34,378 nucleotides of DNA from an uncultured Bacteroidales bacterium (GTDB lineage Bacteria > Bacteroidota > Bacteroidia > Bacteroidales > Bacteroidaceae), in NCBI GenBank assembly GCA_902798705.1, contig CADBXS010000083.1, positions 746 to 35,123 on the forward strand. Reading direction: 5' to 3'. The position numbers and the translations under genes are program-made. This document shows positions 2,425 to 21,296 of the stretch, piece by piece. The notes beneath the pieces are model-generated. The model was not told where the DNA came from, made no database searches, and worked only from the letters and a program-made list of their open reading frames with translations. Position 1 is the first letter of the stretch. Each line of letters starts with the position of its first letter.

Positions 2425-2485
2425 CAAAATAATCACTTTCGAGTCCCCCTGTTTCACTTTTTTTATATAAAATAGCACTTGATAT

Positions 2486-2516
2486 TTTGTCAAATCACAT
2501 TCTTTCACTACTTTTG
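2486..2516 (+). promoter_or_regulatory. Bacteroidota-type promoter of the DUF4738-like gene
   Basis: A -33 TTTG at 2486-2489, a spacer of 19 nt, and a -7 TACTTTTG at 2509-2516 match the consensus fully. Transcription would start near 2522, about 30 nt before the ATG at 2554. Confidence 0.75.
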
Positions 2517-2553
2517 CCGACCTAACAGCAAAATCAAACACACAAAAAATAAA

Positions 2554-3210
2554 ATGCAAAAGACAAAACACCTATCCAACAAGAGCCTTCGACGCTCTAC
2601 CATTGGCTTCGCCAAGCTAAGGCTTCTTCATTCATCCTTATTCATCCTCCTGTCGTCCACCATCCTCTTCTCTTGTCATGGAAAAGGAGGCGGAAACAAG
2701 GAGAGCGACAGCATTTGGGTAGCACCACAGCAGTCGAATGCCATCCTTTCACTCGACGAGATCAACGCCACCGACTCACGCAATGTCAAGGGAAGCGTTT
2801 TTACATACACCATCCACATGGCGCCATCCGACTCGCTCCCTGTCGTCATCAACCTCGACGGGGCACGCTACAAGGACAACATCGTGAATCTCAGCGTCAC
2901 CAAGGACCAGCAAGTCATCCTGCAGCAAAGCTTCACCAAAGCCTCCTTCAAGAACTTCGTACCCGAAAACGACATGTCCAACTGCGCACTGGTAGGTTTC
3001 AGCTACAACCTCAACGAGACAGCCGACACCACGCAGCTCCGCTTCATCGCCACCGTAGGCGATCCCGACGAGACAGCAGGTGTAAACTACTCTACCGAAA
3101 TACTCGTCTCGCCAGCTGGACACATCACCATGCAAATGGCGAAGGACTTAGAGACAGAACCTGAATACGACAATCTCAACCAAGACCCTTCCGAAGACCA
3201 AGGAGTATAA
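2554..3210 (+). CDS. Predicted lipoprotein, DUF4738-like
   Basis: The protein has 218 residues from the ATG at 2554. I prefer this start because the promoter at 2486-2516 lies inside the longer frame that begins at 2479. A basic N-terminus is followed by a hydrophobic stretch (LLHSSLFILLSSTILF) and a Cys in SC-HGKGGG, a lipoprotein-type end. The mature part carries GSVFTYTIHMAPSDSLPVV, a Y-x-DN-x-V-x-L segment, F-T-K-A-S-F, and a hydrophobic C-terminal sandwich. This order resembles what I recall of DUF4738, an uncharacterised family of Bacteroidota envelope proteins. No catalytic motif is visible and the function is unknown. It is a single-gene unit, followed directly by a 22-bp tandem array that ends in a hairpin. 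Confidence 0.7.
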   Translation: MQKTKHLSNKSLRRSTIGFAKLRLLHSSLFILLSSTILFSCHGKGGGNKESDSIWVAPQQSNAILSLDEINATDSRNVKGSVFTYTIHMAPSDSLPVVINLDGARYKDNIVNLSVTKDQQVILQQSFTKASFKNFVPENDMSNCALVGFSYNLNETADTTQLRFIATVGDPDETAGVNYSTEILVSPAGHITMQMAKDLETEPEYDNLNQDPSEDQGV

Positions 3211-3310
3211 CAATAGGGATTCACCCGAACGCTTTTGGGGACTCACCCAAACCTTATTGGGGATTTACTGAAATGCCATTGGGGATTTAGAACGATACGT
3301 CCTCAATGGC
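3211..3310. repeat. 22-bp tandem array A, four copies ending in an inverted copy
   Basis: Copies begin at 3216, 3238, 3260 and 3282, an exact 22-bp period, each opening with GGGA(T/C)T(C/T)A and the first three closing with (T/A)TTG. After the last copy comes TCCTCAATGG (3300-3309), which pairs with CCATTGGGGA (3276-3285) in a 10-bp stem with one G-U pair and a 14-nt loop. It starts directly at the stop codon of the preceding gene. The same repeat occurs at 19957-20070. It is non-coding, since 22 is not a multiple of three. Confidence 0.85.
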
Positions 3311-3405
3311 ATCATTTTATGATATCATTCGTGCTCAAGCAGGGAGGGAAAAGCGATAGTACAGTTTTATTTTTGTGTAATAAAAATCAAATAGAGTTAA
3401 TTTCT

Positions 3406-4176: not shown

Positions 4177-4280
4177 TGGGGCGTGAAGGGTGGAACGTGA
4201 AGAGTGAAGAGTGGAGCGTGAAGAGTGGAGGGTGGAGCGTGAAGAGTGAAGGGTGGAGCGTGAAGAGTGAAGAGTGAAGC
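4177..4280. repeat. Degenerate short tandem repeats (GTGAAGAGTG / GTGGAGCGTG type)
   Basis: About 100 bp of alternating GTGAAGAGTG and GTGGAGCGTG-like units with a period of 7 to 8 nt, and larger repeats of the combined unit. It has no coding potential. With the TTAAAC repeat it fills most of the 353-nt gap before susC. Confidence 0.8.
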
Positions 4281-4374
4281 GATGCTAATCGGATGTAAAG
4301 CCATTGTTTGGGGTATCGTTGAAAAAAAATCAAAAAATGATAGAATTCAGTCAGTGGTACATGAAAAAATACAC

Positions 4375-9571: not shown

Positions 9572-11281
9572 ATGACTATCAATATGAAAAAGTATATCAC
9601 ATATAGAAACAAGAGCATGTGGCTGATGATGATGGCAGTGCTGTTTTCTGTTGCCTTCATCGCTTGTAGCGACGACAACTCCAGCACGGGAGCTCCCGTC
9701 ATAACAGGAGTGAAAGTGCTGTCGTCCGACACGCTGAGCTACGACTACAACAAGACCTACACAAAGGCGGGTGCAGGCAATATGATTGCCATCATGGGTG
9801 AGAACCTCGGTGGAGCACTCCATGTGTATGTCAACAACCAAGCTCTGAACATCAATCCTACGATGAACACCAACACGAGCATCATCGTGACGATTCCTTC
9901 AGAGGACAATGGCTTCAAGCTCACAGGACTCTATGGCGGTACGGACATCATCCGCGTTGTGACTCGCGGAGGCGAAGCAACCTACGGCTTCAAGGTGACA
10001 GGCGGAAGTCCAAGCCTGAAGCGCATCGACGCTGAATATCCTCGCGAAACGGGCGACACCATCTACCTGACAGGTGACAACCTCTTCGACATCGAGCAAA
10101 TCTATATCACCGATGCTATGCCAGCCGCTCTTGACACCGTGGAATGGGAGAATGAGCAGGCACCAGGCAACCACCTTGTAATTTCAGACACAACCACAAC
10201 GGTGATGAGCCGCTATTTCGATGAGGACACGAACAACTACAAGATGGACTCGAGAGTGCGTGTGGTGCTGCCAGCACAACTGCCTGACTCAGGTTCTATC
10301 GTTGTGAAGTGTGCCTCGGGCAATTCCTATCTGCCTTTCTCGATTCTTCCTGGCAAGCCAACCATCACAAGCGTGTCGAACGATATGCCAATGATAGACG
10401 AGGAAATCGTCATCTCGGGTACGGAATTCTACCTCGTTGAAAGTGTATCTTGGGGTGATGTGACTGTCACAGAGGACGATGGCGACCTCAGCATCTCGAA
10501 GACTCACGACAAGATTTTTGTGGTGTTCGACAGAAAGCCATCACCTGGAAGCGAAGCAACGCTGAAGGTGAACACGGCATCGGGTACAGCCACCTACAAG
10601 AATTTCTACGAACGTTCAACGATTCTCACTACCTTCGACGGCGATGCCATCGACAACGGATGGGGACCAAATGCCACATTCAAGGACAGCAAGACTTCTG
10701 ATGGAATATATGCTTACTTCAACATTGAAACGGAATACCAGCAGTGGTGGGGTACGATGATTTACTTCCGCAAGGACTGGGACGGCAACAAGTTCCCTCT
10801 CCCATCCTACGATGTGATTCCAGCCAATGCCTCTACCGACGATGTCTATTTGGCAATGAACGTATTCGACAACGGAAGTGACTACAACAACGGCAAGTTC
10901 TCGGGATTCCTGCGCTATTTCCTCCAGTACGACAACGAAGATGCATTAGGACCAAAGGACGACAGCGGCAACGACAACCCAGCCGACAAGGTGAACGTGT
11001 ACGACAACGGTTTCAGATGGGATGACTACGATGCTGGCACGTTCCTTTTCGACCGCCCAGTACTGGCCGACTACGAGGGCAAAACATACACCGATGTATG
11101 GTATCGCCATGTGGTTCCGCTCAGCTCATTCCTCAAGTACAAGGGACACGATTATCAATTCGTCTATGAAAACGGAATCAATCAGTTCCGCATTCAGAGC
11201 ATCAACCAAGGTACTTCATCAGGTACTATTGATTTCATGATTGATAATGTGCGAATCATCTACATTCCAAAGACAAAATAA
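9572..11281 (+). CDS. TIG/IPT-domain surface glycan-binding lipoprotein (SGBP-B type)
   Basis: A second glycan-binding lipoprotein of the locus. From the ATG at 9584 (equally possible to the one at 9572) the signal peptide ends in FIAC followed by SDD, so it should be surface exposed. It holds about three immunoglobulin-like TIG domains. Their starts read PVITGVKVLSSD, PSLKRIDAEYPRETGDTIYLTGDNL (split here for length at the Gly-Asp) and KPTITSVSNDMPMIDEEIVI. A C-terminal domain follows (from about residue 345: LTTFDGDAIDNGWGPN, WWGTMIYFRKDWDG, IDFMIDNVRIIYIP) that resembles the xyloglucan-binding domain of SGBP-B proteins. Its position after susD matches that role. The substrate is inferred from domain type only. 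Confidence 0.88.
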   Translation: MTINMKKYITYRNKSMWLMMMAVLFSVAFIACSDDNSSTGAPVITGVKVLSSDTLSYDYNKTYTKAGAGNMIAIMGENLGGALHVYVNNQALNINPTMNTNTSIIVTIPSEDNGFKLTGLYGGTDIIRVVTRGGEATYGFKVTGGSPSLKRIDAEYPRETGDTIYLTGDNLFDIEQIYITDAMPAALDTVEWENEQAPGNHLVISDTTTTVMSRYFDEDTNNYKMDSRVRVVLPAQLPDSGSIVVKCASGNSYLPFSILPGKPTITSVSNDMPMIDEEIVISGTEFYLVESVSWGDVTVTEDDGDLSISKTHDKIFVVFDRKPSPGSEATLKVNTASGTATYKNFYERSTILTTFDGDAIDNGWGPNATFKDSKTSDGIYAYFNIETEYQQWWGTMIYFRKDWDGNKFPLPSYDVIPANASTDDVYLAMNVFDNGSDYNNGKFSGFLRYFLQYDNEDALGPKDDSGNDNPADKVNVYDNGFRWDDYDAGTFLFDRPVLADYEGKTYTDVWYRHVVPLSSFLKYKGHDYQFVYENGINQFRIQSINQGTSSGTIDFMIDNVRIIYIPKTK

Positions 11282-19463: not shown

Positions 19464-19733
19464 TTACACCTTCTCAATCTTCTTGACTTGTCCCTTGCCA
19501 CCTGTCAACTGGCTCACCGCAGCGGCGATGATGGCCTTTGTCTGTGCGTCCACTACCGAGACGCCACCGCCCATCGCAGCCACCTTCTTCTGGGGAACCT
19601 GCTCTGCTGGCGCAAACTTGTTCACGAGCGCTATCAGGCCCTTGCCCAAGAAAATGACAATCAGCAGAATCATAAACACGGTCAGCATACCGACAACCAA
19701 GAGTTGGAGGGCATCACCCATAACATTTTCCAT
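19464..19733 (-). CDS. oadG: Sodium-pump decarboxylase gamma subunit (OadG family)
   Basis: A small protein of 89 residues with one N-terminal membrane helix (about 9-33, ALQLLVVGMLTVFMILLIVI), a short cytoplasmic Pro/Lys region and the AAAVSQLTGGKGQVKKIEKV tail. OadG anchors the alpha subunit to OadB and assists assembly. It is the first gene of the oadG-oadA-oadB set, 69 nt before oadA. The likely promoter -7 box lies at 19837-19844 on the minus strand. Confidence 0.88.
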   Translation of the reverse strand: MENVMGDALQLLVVGMLTVFMILLIVIFLGKGLIALVNKFAPAEQVPQKKVAAMGGGVSVVDAQTKAIIAAAVSQLTGGKGQVKKIEKV

Positions 19734-19844: not shown

Positions 19845-19956
19845 CTCAAAAATCAGAACATGATAAAACTTTTCACTTACTTTTAATGTTTTTTATTCTT
19901 TCGCACAAAAAAGCAACGGGAAAAGCAATCGGAAACACTCCGTTCCATCAACAGTG

Positions 19957-20070
19957 GAAACTCACTCAAACGCAATTGAGGATTCACGCTGAAAACGATG
20001 GGGACTCACTCTAACTATATTGGGGATTTACGCCTTCAACGATGGGGACTAAACCAAGTTCGTCCCCAAT
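19957..20070. repeat. 22-bp tandem array B, five copies ending in an inverted copy
   Basis: Copies begin at 19957, 19979, 20001, 20023 and 20045, an exact 22-bp period. They open with GGGA(C/T)T(C/T)AC in the later copies, with one or two changes in the first two. The last copy is followed by GTCCCCAAT (20062-20070), and TGGGGAC (20044-20049 plus neighbours) pairs with GTCCCCA as a 7-bp stem. It is the same repeat as array A at 3216. It lies in the 567-nt divergent gap between oadG and moxR and has no coding potential. Confidence 0.85.
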
Positions 20071-20082
20071 AAAAATACAGAC

Positions 20083-20145
20083 AAACCGCAGAGAACATGG
20101 ATTCCGACAGAAATCATGCCGTTCTATCCGCTGAATCCACGGTTT
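20083..20145. repeat. Composite inverted repeat upstream of moxR
   Basis: AAACCG (20083-20088) and TGGATTC (20098-20104) are mirrored by GAATCCA (20133-20139) and CGGTTT (20140-20145). The arms could fold into a long imperfect hairpin. It lies just after array B and about 90 nt before the moxR promoter. Confidence 0.45.
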
Positions 20146-20234: not shown

Positions 20235-20265
20235 TGTGTTTTTACACGCGAAAGTGTTAATTTTG
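20235..20265 (+). promoter_or_regulatory. Promoter of the moxR-bat operon
   Basis: The -7 box TAATTTTG at 20258-20265 matches the consensus. At the -33 distance (19-nt spacer) there is TGTG (20235-20238), one base from TTTG. The ATG of moxR is about 30 nt downstream of the expected start site. Confidence 0.6.
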
Positions 20266-20300: not shown

Positions 20301-21296
20301 ATGGCAGAAGCTATTGACATTCGTGAACTCAACGAACGTATAGAAAGAGAAAGTTCTTTCGTAACCAATCTGGTAACGGGTATGAACCAGGCCATCATCG
20401 GACAGAAGCACCTGGTGGAATCACTCCTCATCGGTCTGCTCTCCGACGGACACGTGCTGCTGGAAGGTGTGCCAGGTTTGGCCAAGACAAAGGCCATCAA
20501 GACCTTGGCAGCACTCATCGACGCGAAGTTCAGCCGCATCCAGTTCACTCCCGACCTTCTCCCTGCCGATGTAATCGGTACGATGATTTACAATCAGAAG
20601 GAAAGCCGATTCGAGGCAAAGCAGGGACCTATCTTCGCCAACTTCGTATTGGCAGATGAAATCAACCGTGCGCCAGCCAAGGTGCAGAGCGCACTGCTGG
20701 AAGCCATGCAGGAACGTCAGGTGACACTCTCCACAACCACTTACCAGCTCCCTGCCCCATTCCTCGTACTGGCCACGCAGAACCCTATTGAGCAGGAAGG
20801 TACGTACCCACTGCCTGAGGCACAGGTGGACCGCTTCATGCTGAAGGTAGTCATCGACTATCCAAAGCTGGAGGAGGAGAAGAAAATCATCCGTCAGAAC
20901 ATCGCTGCGGAAAAGACAGTGATTCGTCCTATCATGGGCACGAACGAGATTGAGTCGGCCCGCAAGGTGGTGAGCCAGGTGTATCTCGACGAGAAGATTG
21001 AGCAGTACATCGCTGACATCGTCTTTGCAACTCGCTACCCAGACAAGTACGGACTGAAGGACTTGACGGGACTCATCAACTTCGGTGCATCGCCTCGTGC
21101 TTCCATCAACCTGGCTCTGGCTGCTCGCGCCTTTGCCTTCATCAAGCACCGTGGCTACGTGATTCCAGAGGATATCCGCGCCGTGGCTCACGACGTGCTC
21201 CGCCACCGCATCGGTCTGACCTACGAGGCTGAAGCCACGAATGTGACGCAGGAGGAAATCATCAGCAAGATTATCAATAAGGTGGAAGTACCATAA
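20301..21296 (+). CDS. MoxR-family AAA+ ATPase
   Basis: MoxR ATPases act as chaperones for partner proteins with von Willebrand A domains, several of which follow in this operon. The protein has 331 residues and is intact. It has Walker A GVPGLAKT (56-63), Walker B VLADEINR, the sensor-1 region LATQNPIEQEGTYPLPEAQ, and the AAA lid FGASPRASINLALAARAFA. It is the first gene of the set moxR, DUF58, BatD-like, batA to batE. Array B and a composite inverted repeat lie upstream of its promoter. Confidence 0.95.
   Translation: MAEAIDIRELNERIERESSFVTNLVTGMNQAIIGQKHLVESLLIGLLSDGHVLLEGVPGLAKTKAIKTLAALIDAKFSRIQFTPDLLPADVIGTMIYNQKESRFEAKQGPIFANFVLADEINRAPAKVQSALLEAMQERQVTLSTTTYQLPAPFLVLATQNPIEQEGTYPLPEAQVDRFMLKVVIDYPKLEEEKKIIRQNIAAEKTVIRPIMGTNEIESARKVVSQVYLDEKIEQYIADIVFATRYPDKYGLKDLTGLINFGASPRASINLALAARAFAFIKHRGYVIPEDIRAVAHDVLRHRIGLTYEAEATNVTQEEIISKIINKVEVP

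Follow-up and report, generated by a model that had tools for sequence, protein, structure and literature searches.

Why should five related units stand exactly 22 bp apart in the gap between two divergent genes of a Bacteroidales bacterium? The stretch analysed here (the window, 34,378 nucleotides in full) carries such a run, array B, between oadG and moxR, and a second one, array A, behind a DUF4738 gene. A sequence-only reading had described five copies at that spacing in array B, placed it in the divergent gap, assigned both arrays to one family and suggested a MITE-like mobile element or a nucleoid-protein binding array. The spacing was confirmed, in the same register, the copies having been counted from a point two bases further on, and OAD_gamma and AAA_3 domain matches bear out the gap. 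The features on which the argument rests are the following.

2479..3210, plus strand: DUF4738 gene in front of array A, from a domain match
3213..3306, plus strand: array A, four alpha units of the array B family with a weak inverted end, 3 bp past the stop of the DUF4738 gene
19464..19733, minus strand: oadG (OAD_gamma, E 2.7e-10)
19955..20064, plus strand: array B, five alpha units of the type TTGGGGAYTYACTnnnnCGCTA, from the exact 22-bp register and a shuffle test
20043..20068, no strand: closing palindrome of array B, TGGGGANNNACTNNAGTNNNTCCCCA, with 2 mismatches, where the last forward unit meets an inverted one
20048..20091, minus strand: inverted alpha units of array B, one good and one degenerate, both with counterparts in the sister genome G002
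20258..20265, plus strand: TAnnTTTG box upstream of moxR, apart from the array and invariant in the 9 genomes aligned
20301..21296, plus strand: moxR (AAA_3, E 6.6e-67)

Two arrays in the window and a family in the genome

The units of array B start, at the T of TGGGGA, at 19955, 19977, 19999, 20021 and 20043, exactly 22 bp apart; copies 1 to 5 match the core at 6, 7, 8, 8 and 7 of 8 positions, and the first (GTGGAAACTCAC) is a poor match. An inverted GTCCCCAAT at 20062-20070 forms, together with the fifth copy, a 26-bp imperfect palindrome. A closing inverted core had been claimed for both arrays; it is present in array B, and its counterpart in array A is weaker (TTGGGGATTTAG...CGTCCTCAATGG). 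TRF calls array B with a period of 44 (score 112, 19960-20050). A tandem-pair pattern scanned with up to 3 mismatches has 7 matches in the window, every one within arrays A and B, against a mean of 0.29 and a maximum of 2 in 100 dinucleotide shuffles of the window. The pattern of a second module, beta, has no match in the window, and known RNA families at gathering thresholds there comprise 8 tRNAs and nothing else. Tandem repeats of 7/14/21 bp at 4181-4281 and of 21 bp at 172-232 are unrelated to the 22-bp arrays; multiples of the 7-bp repeat turn up again in congeners, at lag 14.

The two arrays do belong to one family, and it is far larger than two loci. In the window's own assembly (G000; 81.7% complete, 195 contigs) the tandem-pair pattern at up to 3 mismatches gives 188 matches against 7 for the reversed control pattern, and the palindrome TGGGGANNNACTNNAGTNNNTCCCCA, also at up to 3 mismatches, 20 sites against 0 for its control. 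Unrelated sequence in relatives and no unit elsewhere would have spoken against a family; what we find is a unit spread genome-wide and a sister genome with arrays at both sites. We read 53 loci, namely arrays A and B and 51 taken from the fewer-mismatch sites among the matches listed, the higher-mismatch sites being left out. Their forward chains hold 2-10 units; as chains are defined by a step of 22, that step inside them is not independent evidence. The step at which an array turns direction was left free, and it is 25 bp in 10 of the 11 arrays that turn and 113 bp, or 25 + 4x22, in the eleventh (L079). None of the 54 array clusters at these loci lies inside a gene, as predicted with a simple codon score made for this analysis, and three extend 9-14 bp into a predicted gene end; 12 clusters have divergent neighbouring genes, 19 have tandem and 5 convergent ones, and for 18 the arrangement is unresolved on at least one side.

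The loci are modular. Among the matches listed, alpha-alone loci often have one or two inverted units at one end, loci with alpha and beta usually carry a block of four CGARSSYTCG (beta) motifs downstream of alpha, and many of the latter also carry a CAACTAGTTG unit and further 22-bp units; a third kind has alpha behind an AT-rich stretch (L061 and L082). In the 16 loci with at least two beta motifs downstream of the longest alpha chain, 15 (58 of 60 motifs) have all their beta motifs at a single phase of the alpha register, and in the remaining one, L065, two motifs lie at other phases. The CAACTAGTTG unit stands at the near end of the beta block in 6 loci; in 3 the block is reversed and the unit is at its far end, with the phase unchanged; in L057 the beta block lies upstream of alpha, at phase 13. 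Independent joinings of alpha and beta must be fewer than 15, since some of the 15 loci share ancestry, and the two orientations imply at least two. An AT-rich element of 230-350 bp lies with or beside alpha arrays at L061:1746-1977, L082:1688-2038 and L148:3614-3952; it occurs at different G000 loci and upstream of moxR in the congener G011, and has therefore been copied or moved. In G011 the composite element before moxR resembles a G000 locus other than the moxR one, with 81% identity across 357 bp.

The 22-bp pitch in relatives

The alpha sequence is patchy in the genus, being abundant in 3 of 13 genomes: the alpha pair at up to 2 mismatches has 127 matches in G000, 86 in G002, 79 in G011 and 0-2 in the other 10 congeners. 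Beta matches number 477 in G002, 290 in G000, 200 in G011, 76 in G010, 9 in G006 and 0-2 in other congeners, with 0-6 for reversed controls. Both sequences fit one clade and not scattered transfer, judged against MoxR identity (G002 100%, G011 98%, G010 and G006 91%, G008 89%, G001 85%, G005 83%, G003 81%); the best match in G004, G009 and G012 is just 46-47%, and G007 has none. A search of named genomes with three exact units returned 43 stretches, 24 in the Prevotellaceae MAGs UBA4361 and RUG849 and 19 elsewhere. One of the 19, from a Bacteroidaceae MAG (L134), has both alpha units and the closing palindrome, and those from Treponema, Planctomycetes and others carry arrays of other motifs (GGGGACAGACC and similar).

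Arrays above the conserved moxR promoter come and go. Lag-22 arrays lie upstream of moxR in G000, G002, G011, G010 and G005 (0 of 200 block shuffles reach the observed value in each), with unit sequences that differ among G000/G002, G010 and G005. G001 has a 21-bp array there and also a fainter signal at 22 bp, reached by 0 of 200, and G006 has 14/21-bp repeats instead, its lag 22 being matched by 3 of 200; in G008 and G003 the lag scan with block shuffles showed no array. The gene order differs in the congeners without alpha at this site: the upstream neighbour of moxR is oadG in G000 and G002, a DUF4738 gene homologue directly upstream in G010, G006 and G008, and other sequence in G011, G005, G001 and G003. 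Array B is not the core promoter of moxR, as the TAnnTTTG box, which we take to be the Bacteroidetes -7 promoter element, stands separate from it and is invariant in the aligned genomes.

What relatives keep is the spacing. A scan of intergenic DNA at lags 12-45 in four species put 22 and 44 ahead of every other lag that is not a multiple of three in each of them, with totals (lag 22 / 44, in bp) of 1709 / 1141 in G000, 908 / 732 in G002, 939 / 847 in G008 (9 of 51 regions) and 216 / 264 in G006; lag 14 and its multiples are also present, from 7-bp repeats. G008 and G006 show the pitch yet have 1 and 0 alpha matches. The G008 units are TTTCACTGCGGTGGAACTTTTG and CCAAGTGCTTAGCGTAAAATCT, and those of G007, G010, G001 and G005 are different again. 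Because relatives keep the exact 22-base pitch with different unit sequences, the spacing itself, this suggests, matters. In the four-species samples the median array length is 102-135 bp, and Markov-resampled intergenic DNA gave no arrays. All 33 arrays of these samples are intergenic, though intergenic DNA makes up 26-38% of the sample; as 22 is not a multiple of three either, a coding origin was rejected.

Whole stretches held 16 lag-22 arrays in 398 kb of G000, 6 in 199 kb of G002 and 26 in 501 kb of other congeners (contigs partly chosen). From other genera of the family, 423 kb yielded 8, spread over 5 of 22 genera; 288 kb of other families held 1 and two more at lag 23, and E. coli had none in 100 kb. 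At other lags not divisible by three, with 44 left out, there were 2 arrays in other genera, 7 in congeners, 10 in G000 and 16 in G002. The 22-bp excess is far less sharp with TRF at loose settings, where periods 12, 15 and 21 are often equal or commoner; period 22 accounts for 43 of 398 arrays in G000 and 20 of 191 in G002; other congeners have 33 such arrays among 448, other genera 24 among 347, other families 11 among 257 and E. coli 3 among 58. Another Bacteroidales family has 23-bp-pitch arrays (TTTTTATCTCACAAGTTTGTCAG) at L295:8224-8301 and 9665-9764, like the 23-nt units reported for Porphyromonas. In other genera, three stretches chosen by pattern hits (L247:10318-10647, L248:13766-13986 and L254:12610-12761) show by eye an apparent 11-bp sub-period, half of 22. 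On sequence evidence, the constant feature of this class of short intergenic arrays is its 22-bp pitch.

A proposed docking array or a neutral minisatellite

We propose, tentatively and well aware that it may fail, that array B is an intergenic mosaic of the BIME/BOX kind with fixed spacing and a putative docking array for a DNA-binding protein; among the suggestions of the sequence-only reading, the putative nucleoid-protein binding array is the most likely. The units would be docking sites of one or more DNA-binding proteins that assemble with sites about two helical turns apart, and the closing palindrome would be a dimer site of the putative docking protein. Unit number and sequence would shift through local duplication and conversion, tracking the changing preference of the protein, and the likely outcome would concern neither termination nor a core promoter but local nucleoid architecture, insulation or the modulation of promoters nearby. 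Docking at two-turn intervals would fit a spacing that stays fixed through changes of module and arrays that end in a closing palindrome. Of 60 pairs of free positions in the 20 palindromes, 15 are complementary, below the 21.8 of shuffled pairs, so the palindromes look like protein half-sites and not like stems.

A rival account, which we regard as a real but lesser possibility, is that the arrays are a neutral or selfish intergenic minisatellite, BIME/BOX-like, whose units multiply by slippage and gene conversion and serve neither a function nor a binding protein, with the 22-bp pitch as a by-product of how it is generated. Comparison of G000 with its sister genome G002 bears on both accounts. 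For fifteen G000 loci the G002 pieces compared contain the orthologous stretch (three further loci, which matched just a ~200-bp repeat in L143, were left out): in 11 the collinearity runs through to either side of the array, in 2 it breaks there (L046 and array A), and 2 were not classed, the stretch of L047 ending beside the array and that of L070 being unmatched for 1.2 kb to the contig start. In G002 the place and the closing palindrome are mostly kept and the inner units have turned over. Over 14 pairs, agreement at variable positions is 0.60 between units within one array, 0.44 between orthologous arrays, 0.43 (G000) and 0.48 (G002) with other loci of the same genome, and 0.40 with the other genome's other loci; 0 of 500 species-label swaps reach the homogenisation observed for the unit's 3' half. 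When all 22 positions are counted, the last unit agrees at 0.77 between orthologues against 0.60 between non-orthologues, and internal units at 0.594 against 0.567. The apparent conservation of the core between G000 and G002 is inflated, because the loci were found largely by the alpha pattern; array B in G002 was reached by its neighbouring gene also, without that pattern.

Concerted evolution within loci and rapid turnover are explained more simply by a minisatellite than by docking. The intergenic position with mixed gene orientations, the gain and loss of arrays at moxR, and the tandem repeats of 22, 23 and 41 nt reported for Porphyromonas gingivalis (PMC4596501) fit it as well. It leaves unexplained why unrelated modules join in one register and in both orientations, why the last, palindromic unit is the better orthologue, and why species with different units share a pitch.

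Several observations count against the docking reading in turn. Slippage alone holds the register inside arrays of like units, several lag-22 arrays in other genera have just two or three alike units, and the species-specific homogenisation signal comes mainly from G002. In the whole stretches of G002, lag 14 (8 arrays, from 7-bp repeats) is commoner than lag 22 (6), and no lag-22 arrays were seen in G003, G004, G009 and G012 (22-40 kb each). The units of G008 and G010 are imperfect palindromes and some of their arrays fold strongly. Of the six arm positions compared over 27 G008/G010 palindromes, three covary, one is anti-complementary and the other two show no covariation; structure tests thus differ by unit type, since alpha palindromes are non-complementary and G008/G010 arms partly covary.

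At array A (window 3213-3366) the gene orders of G000 and G002 part: G002 carries the DUF4738 gene together with its array on a separate contig, and has the genes to the right of array A behind another gene. Array A and the site upstream of moxR are also synteny breaks among congeners. The hypothesis that arrays are breakpoints is left weak, because only 2 of 15 sister pairs break at the array.

Known repeat systems and the meaning of a fixed pitch

We file the arrays as a variant of intergenic mosaic repeats, not as members of the MITE, RAYT-REP or terminator families. Pneumococcal BOX elements have a variable number of inner modules; the arrays differ in that every module keeps one 22-bp register. 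Both are modular intergenic elements (PMC10969869). REP/BIME elements are intergenic, modular, clustered palindromes (PMC3733652, PMC2817692). The arrays share with them the intergenic position, the many copies and the modular build; clustering is found throughout, and the units are largely palindromic in G008-type arrays, whose clustered imperfect palindromes include some oppositely oriented neighbours, and not in alpha. They differ from REP/BIME in the alpha unit, which is no palindrome, in the single 22-bp pitch across species with different sequences, and in that no tyrosine transposase was found in their own genome (G000, 81.7% complete).

It is improbable that the arrays are relics or non-autonomous repeats of a GGGG-tagged tyrosine-transposase (TIRYT/RAYT) system. 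The likeness is real: the flanks of TIRYT genes share GGGGWSAS and these GGGGA-initial repeats form dimers and clusters (PMC3733652), alpha begins GGGGAY..AC, and in Treponema G062 and G065 GGGGA[CT]nnAC[CT] repeats stand at 10 of 10 fetched Y1-transposase loci. Against it, no Y1 transposase was found in G000 or in G011 (89% complete), both rich in arrays, and none was seen in association with the arrays; the one Y1 transposase of G002 fits the IS200 model and is flanked by other repeats; five other array-bearing genomes, the alpha-bearing Bacteroidaceae MAG included, have no such repeats at the 20 Y1 loci fetched; and the units of G008, G010 and G007 lack GGGG yet keep the 22-bp pitch. IS200/RAYT as the driver in G000 was rejected on the same grounds, Y1 being not found there and the G002 gene having other flanks. 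A crude HUH-motif scan of the 19 array loci outside UBA4361 and RUG849 (L111, L134 and L135 of Bacteroidales among them) gave three ORFs with the bare motif, none convincing.

Treponema G062 has 33 Y1 matches, and the repeats at the fetched G062/G065 loci (L302, L307, L311, L315, L319, L321, L324, L327, L329 and L331) are of the GGGGACAGACC type. The IS200 copies at L166:1388-2017 (G002) and L167:1331-1937 (G010) are closely similar, both flanked by CGAGGGTACG...CGTACCCTCG.

That the arrays are BrickBuilt-type MITEs, moved by an IS transposase, is disfavoured and very unlikely. BrickBuilt elements (PMC4596501) consist of 23-nt units with a leader, a tail and IS5-like TIRs, and the paper also notes direct repeats of 22 nt in P. 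gingivalis W83; the order Bacteroidales, the intergenic position and tandem units of varying number are common ground. The arrays are likewise dispersed, and the likeness among some composite elements extends over 130-350 bp of sequence surrounding or adjoining the array. In an all-against-all comparison of the 53 loci, among the matches listed, alpha-only arrays share essentially just the array, with no common leader, tail or TIRs, and flanks are shared by a beta or AT-rich composite subset. Array B itself has neither leader, tail nor TIRs, keeps a pitch of 22, and turns direction at a palindrome. Of the earlier suggestion of a MITE-like mobile element, movement or copying stands for some composite elements, and mobility in general fares poorly, since 11 of 15 loci, array included, line up collinearly with the sister genome. 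In the open-licence literature, none of the matches listed describes a class of arrays with 22-bp pitch from Prevotella relatives.

That the arrays act in the transcript, as RNA hairpins or a terminator, we give hardly any credence. Some arrays of G008, G010 and others fold strongly (z down to -13.2), and array A, 3 bp behind a gene, does so on one strand (z -4.5). Folding is weak in array B (z -1.5, -2.1), slight in L214:1-119 of G008 (0.1, -1.6) and below that of shuffled sequence in one G007 array (z 2.6, 1.7); the palindrome arms are non-complementary, and 12 of 54 arrays lie in divergent gaps. The 37 arrays folded span z values of -13.2 to +2.6, and for that reason a hairpin was rejected as a general principle. 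An intrinsic terminator was rejected for array B, where GTCCCCAAT is followed by AAAAATAC and not by T, the gap is divergent and the fold weak; the earlier remark that a simple terminator cannot explain both arrays was right.

Phage or plasmid cargo was rejected: blastn at E up to 0.01 found no match to array B among 50,697 records of phages or 72,556 of plasmids, and the one viral contig that matches a triple pattern has a GC-rich, different array. A serine-recombinase site was rejected too, for the 12+2+12 geometry fits, yet PF00239 was not found in G000 or G002 (G011 has one match, of 48 bits, and G005 one).

We speculate, with little confidence, that the heritable feature may be a 22-bp ruler and not a sequence, and that a conserved Bacteroidales machine would build or read the arrays by pitch alone; unit sequences would then be replaced species by species and the pitch kept. 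If so, sequence comparison would be blind to this class of array and only a period scan, which is cheap and repeatable on any genome, would detect it, and the arrays would offer a natural test of whether the assembly of DNA-bound proteins is selected for spacing. Were the arrays neutral, they would still be fast species-level markers and a clean bacterial case of concerted evolution. If the pitch is conserved without the sequence, homology searches would overlook an intergenic layer in an abundant group of gut and rumen bacteria.
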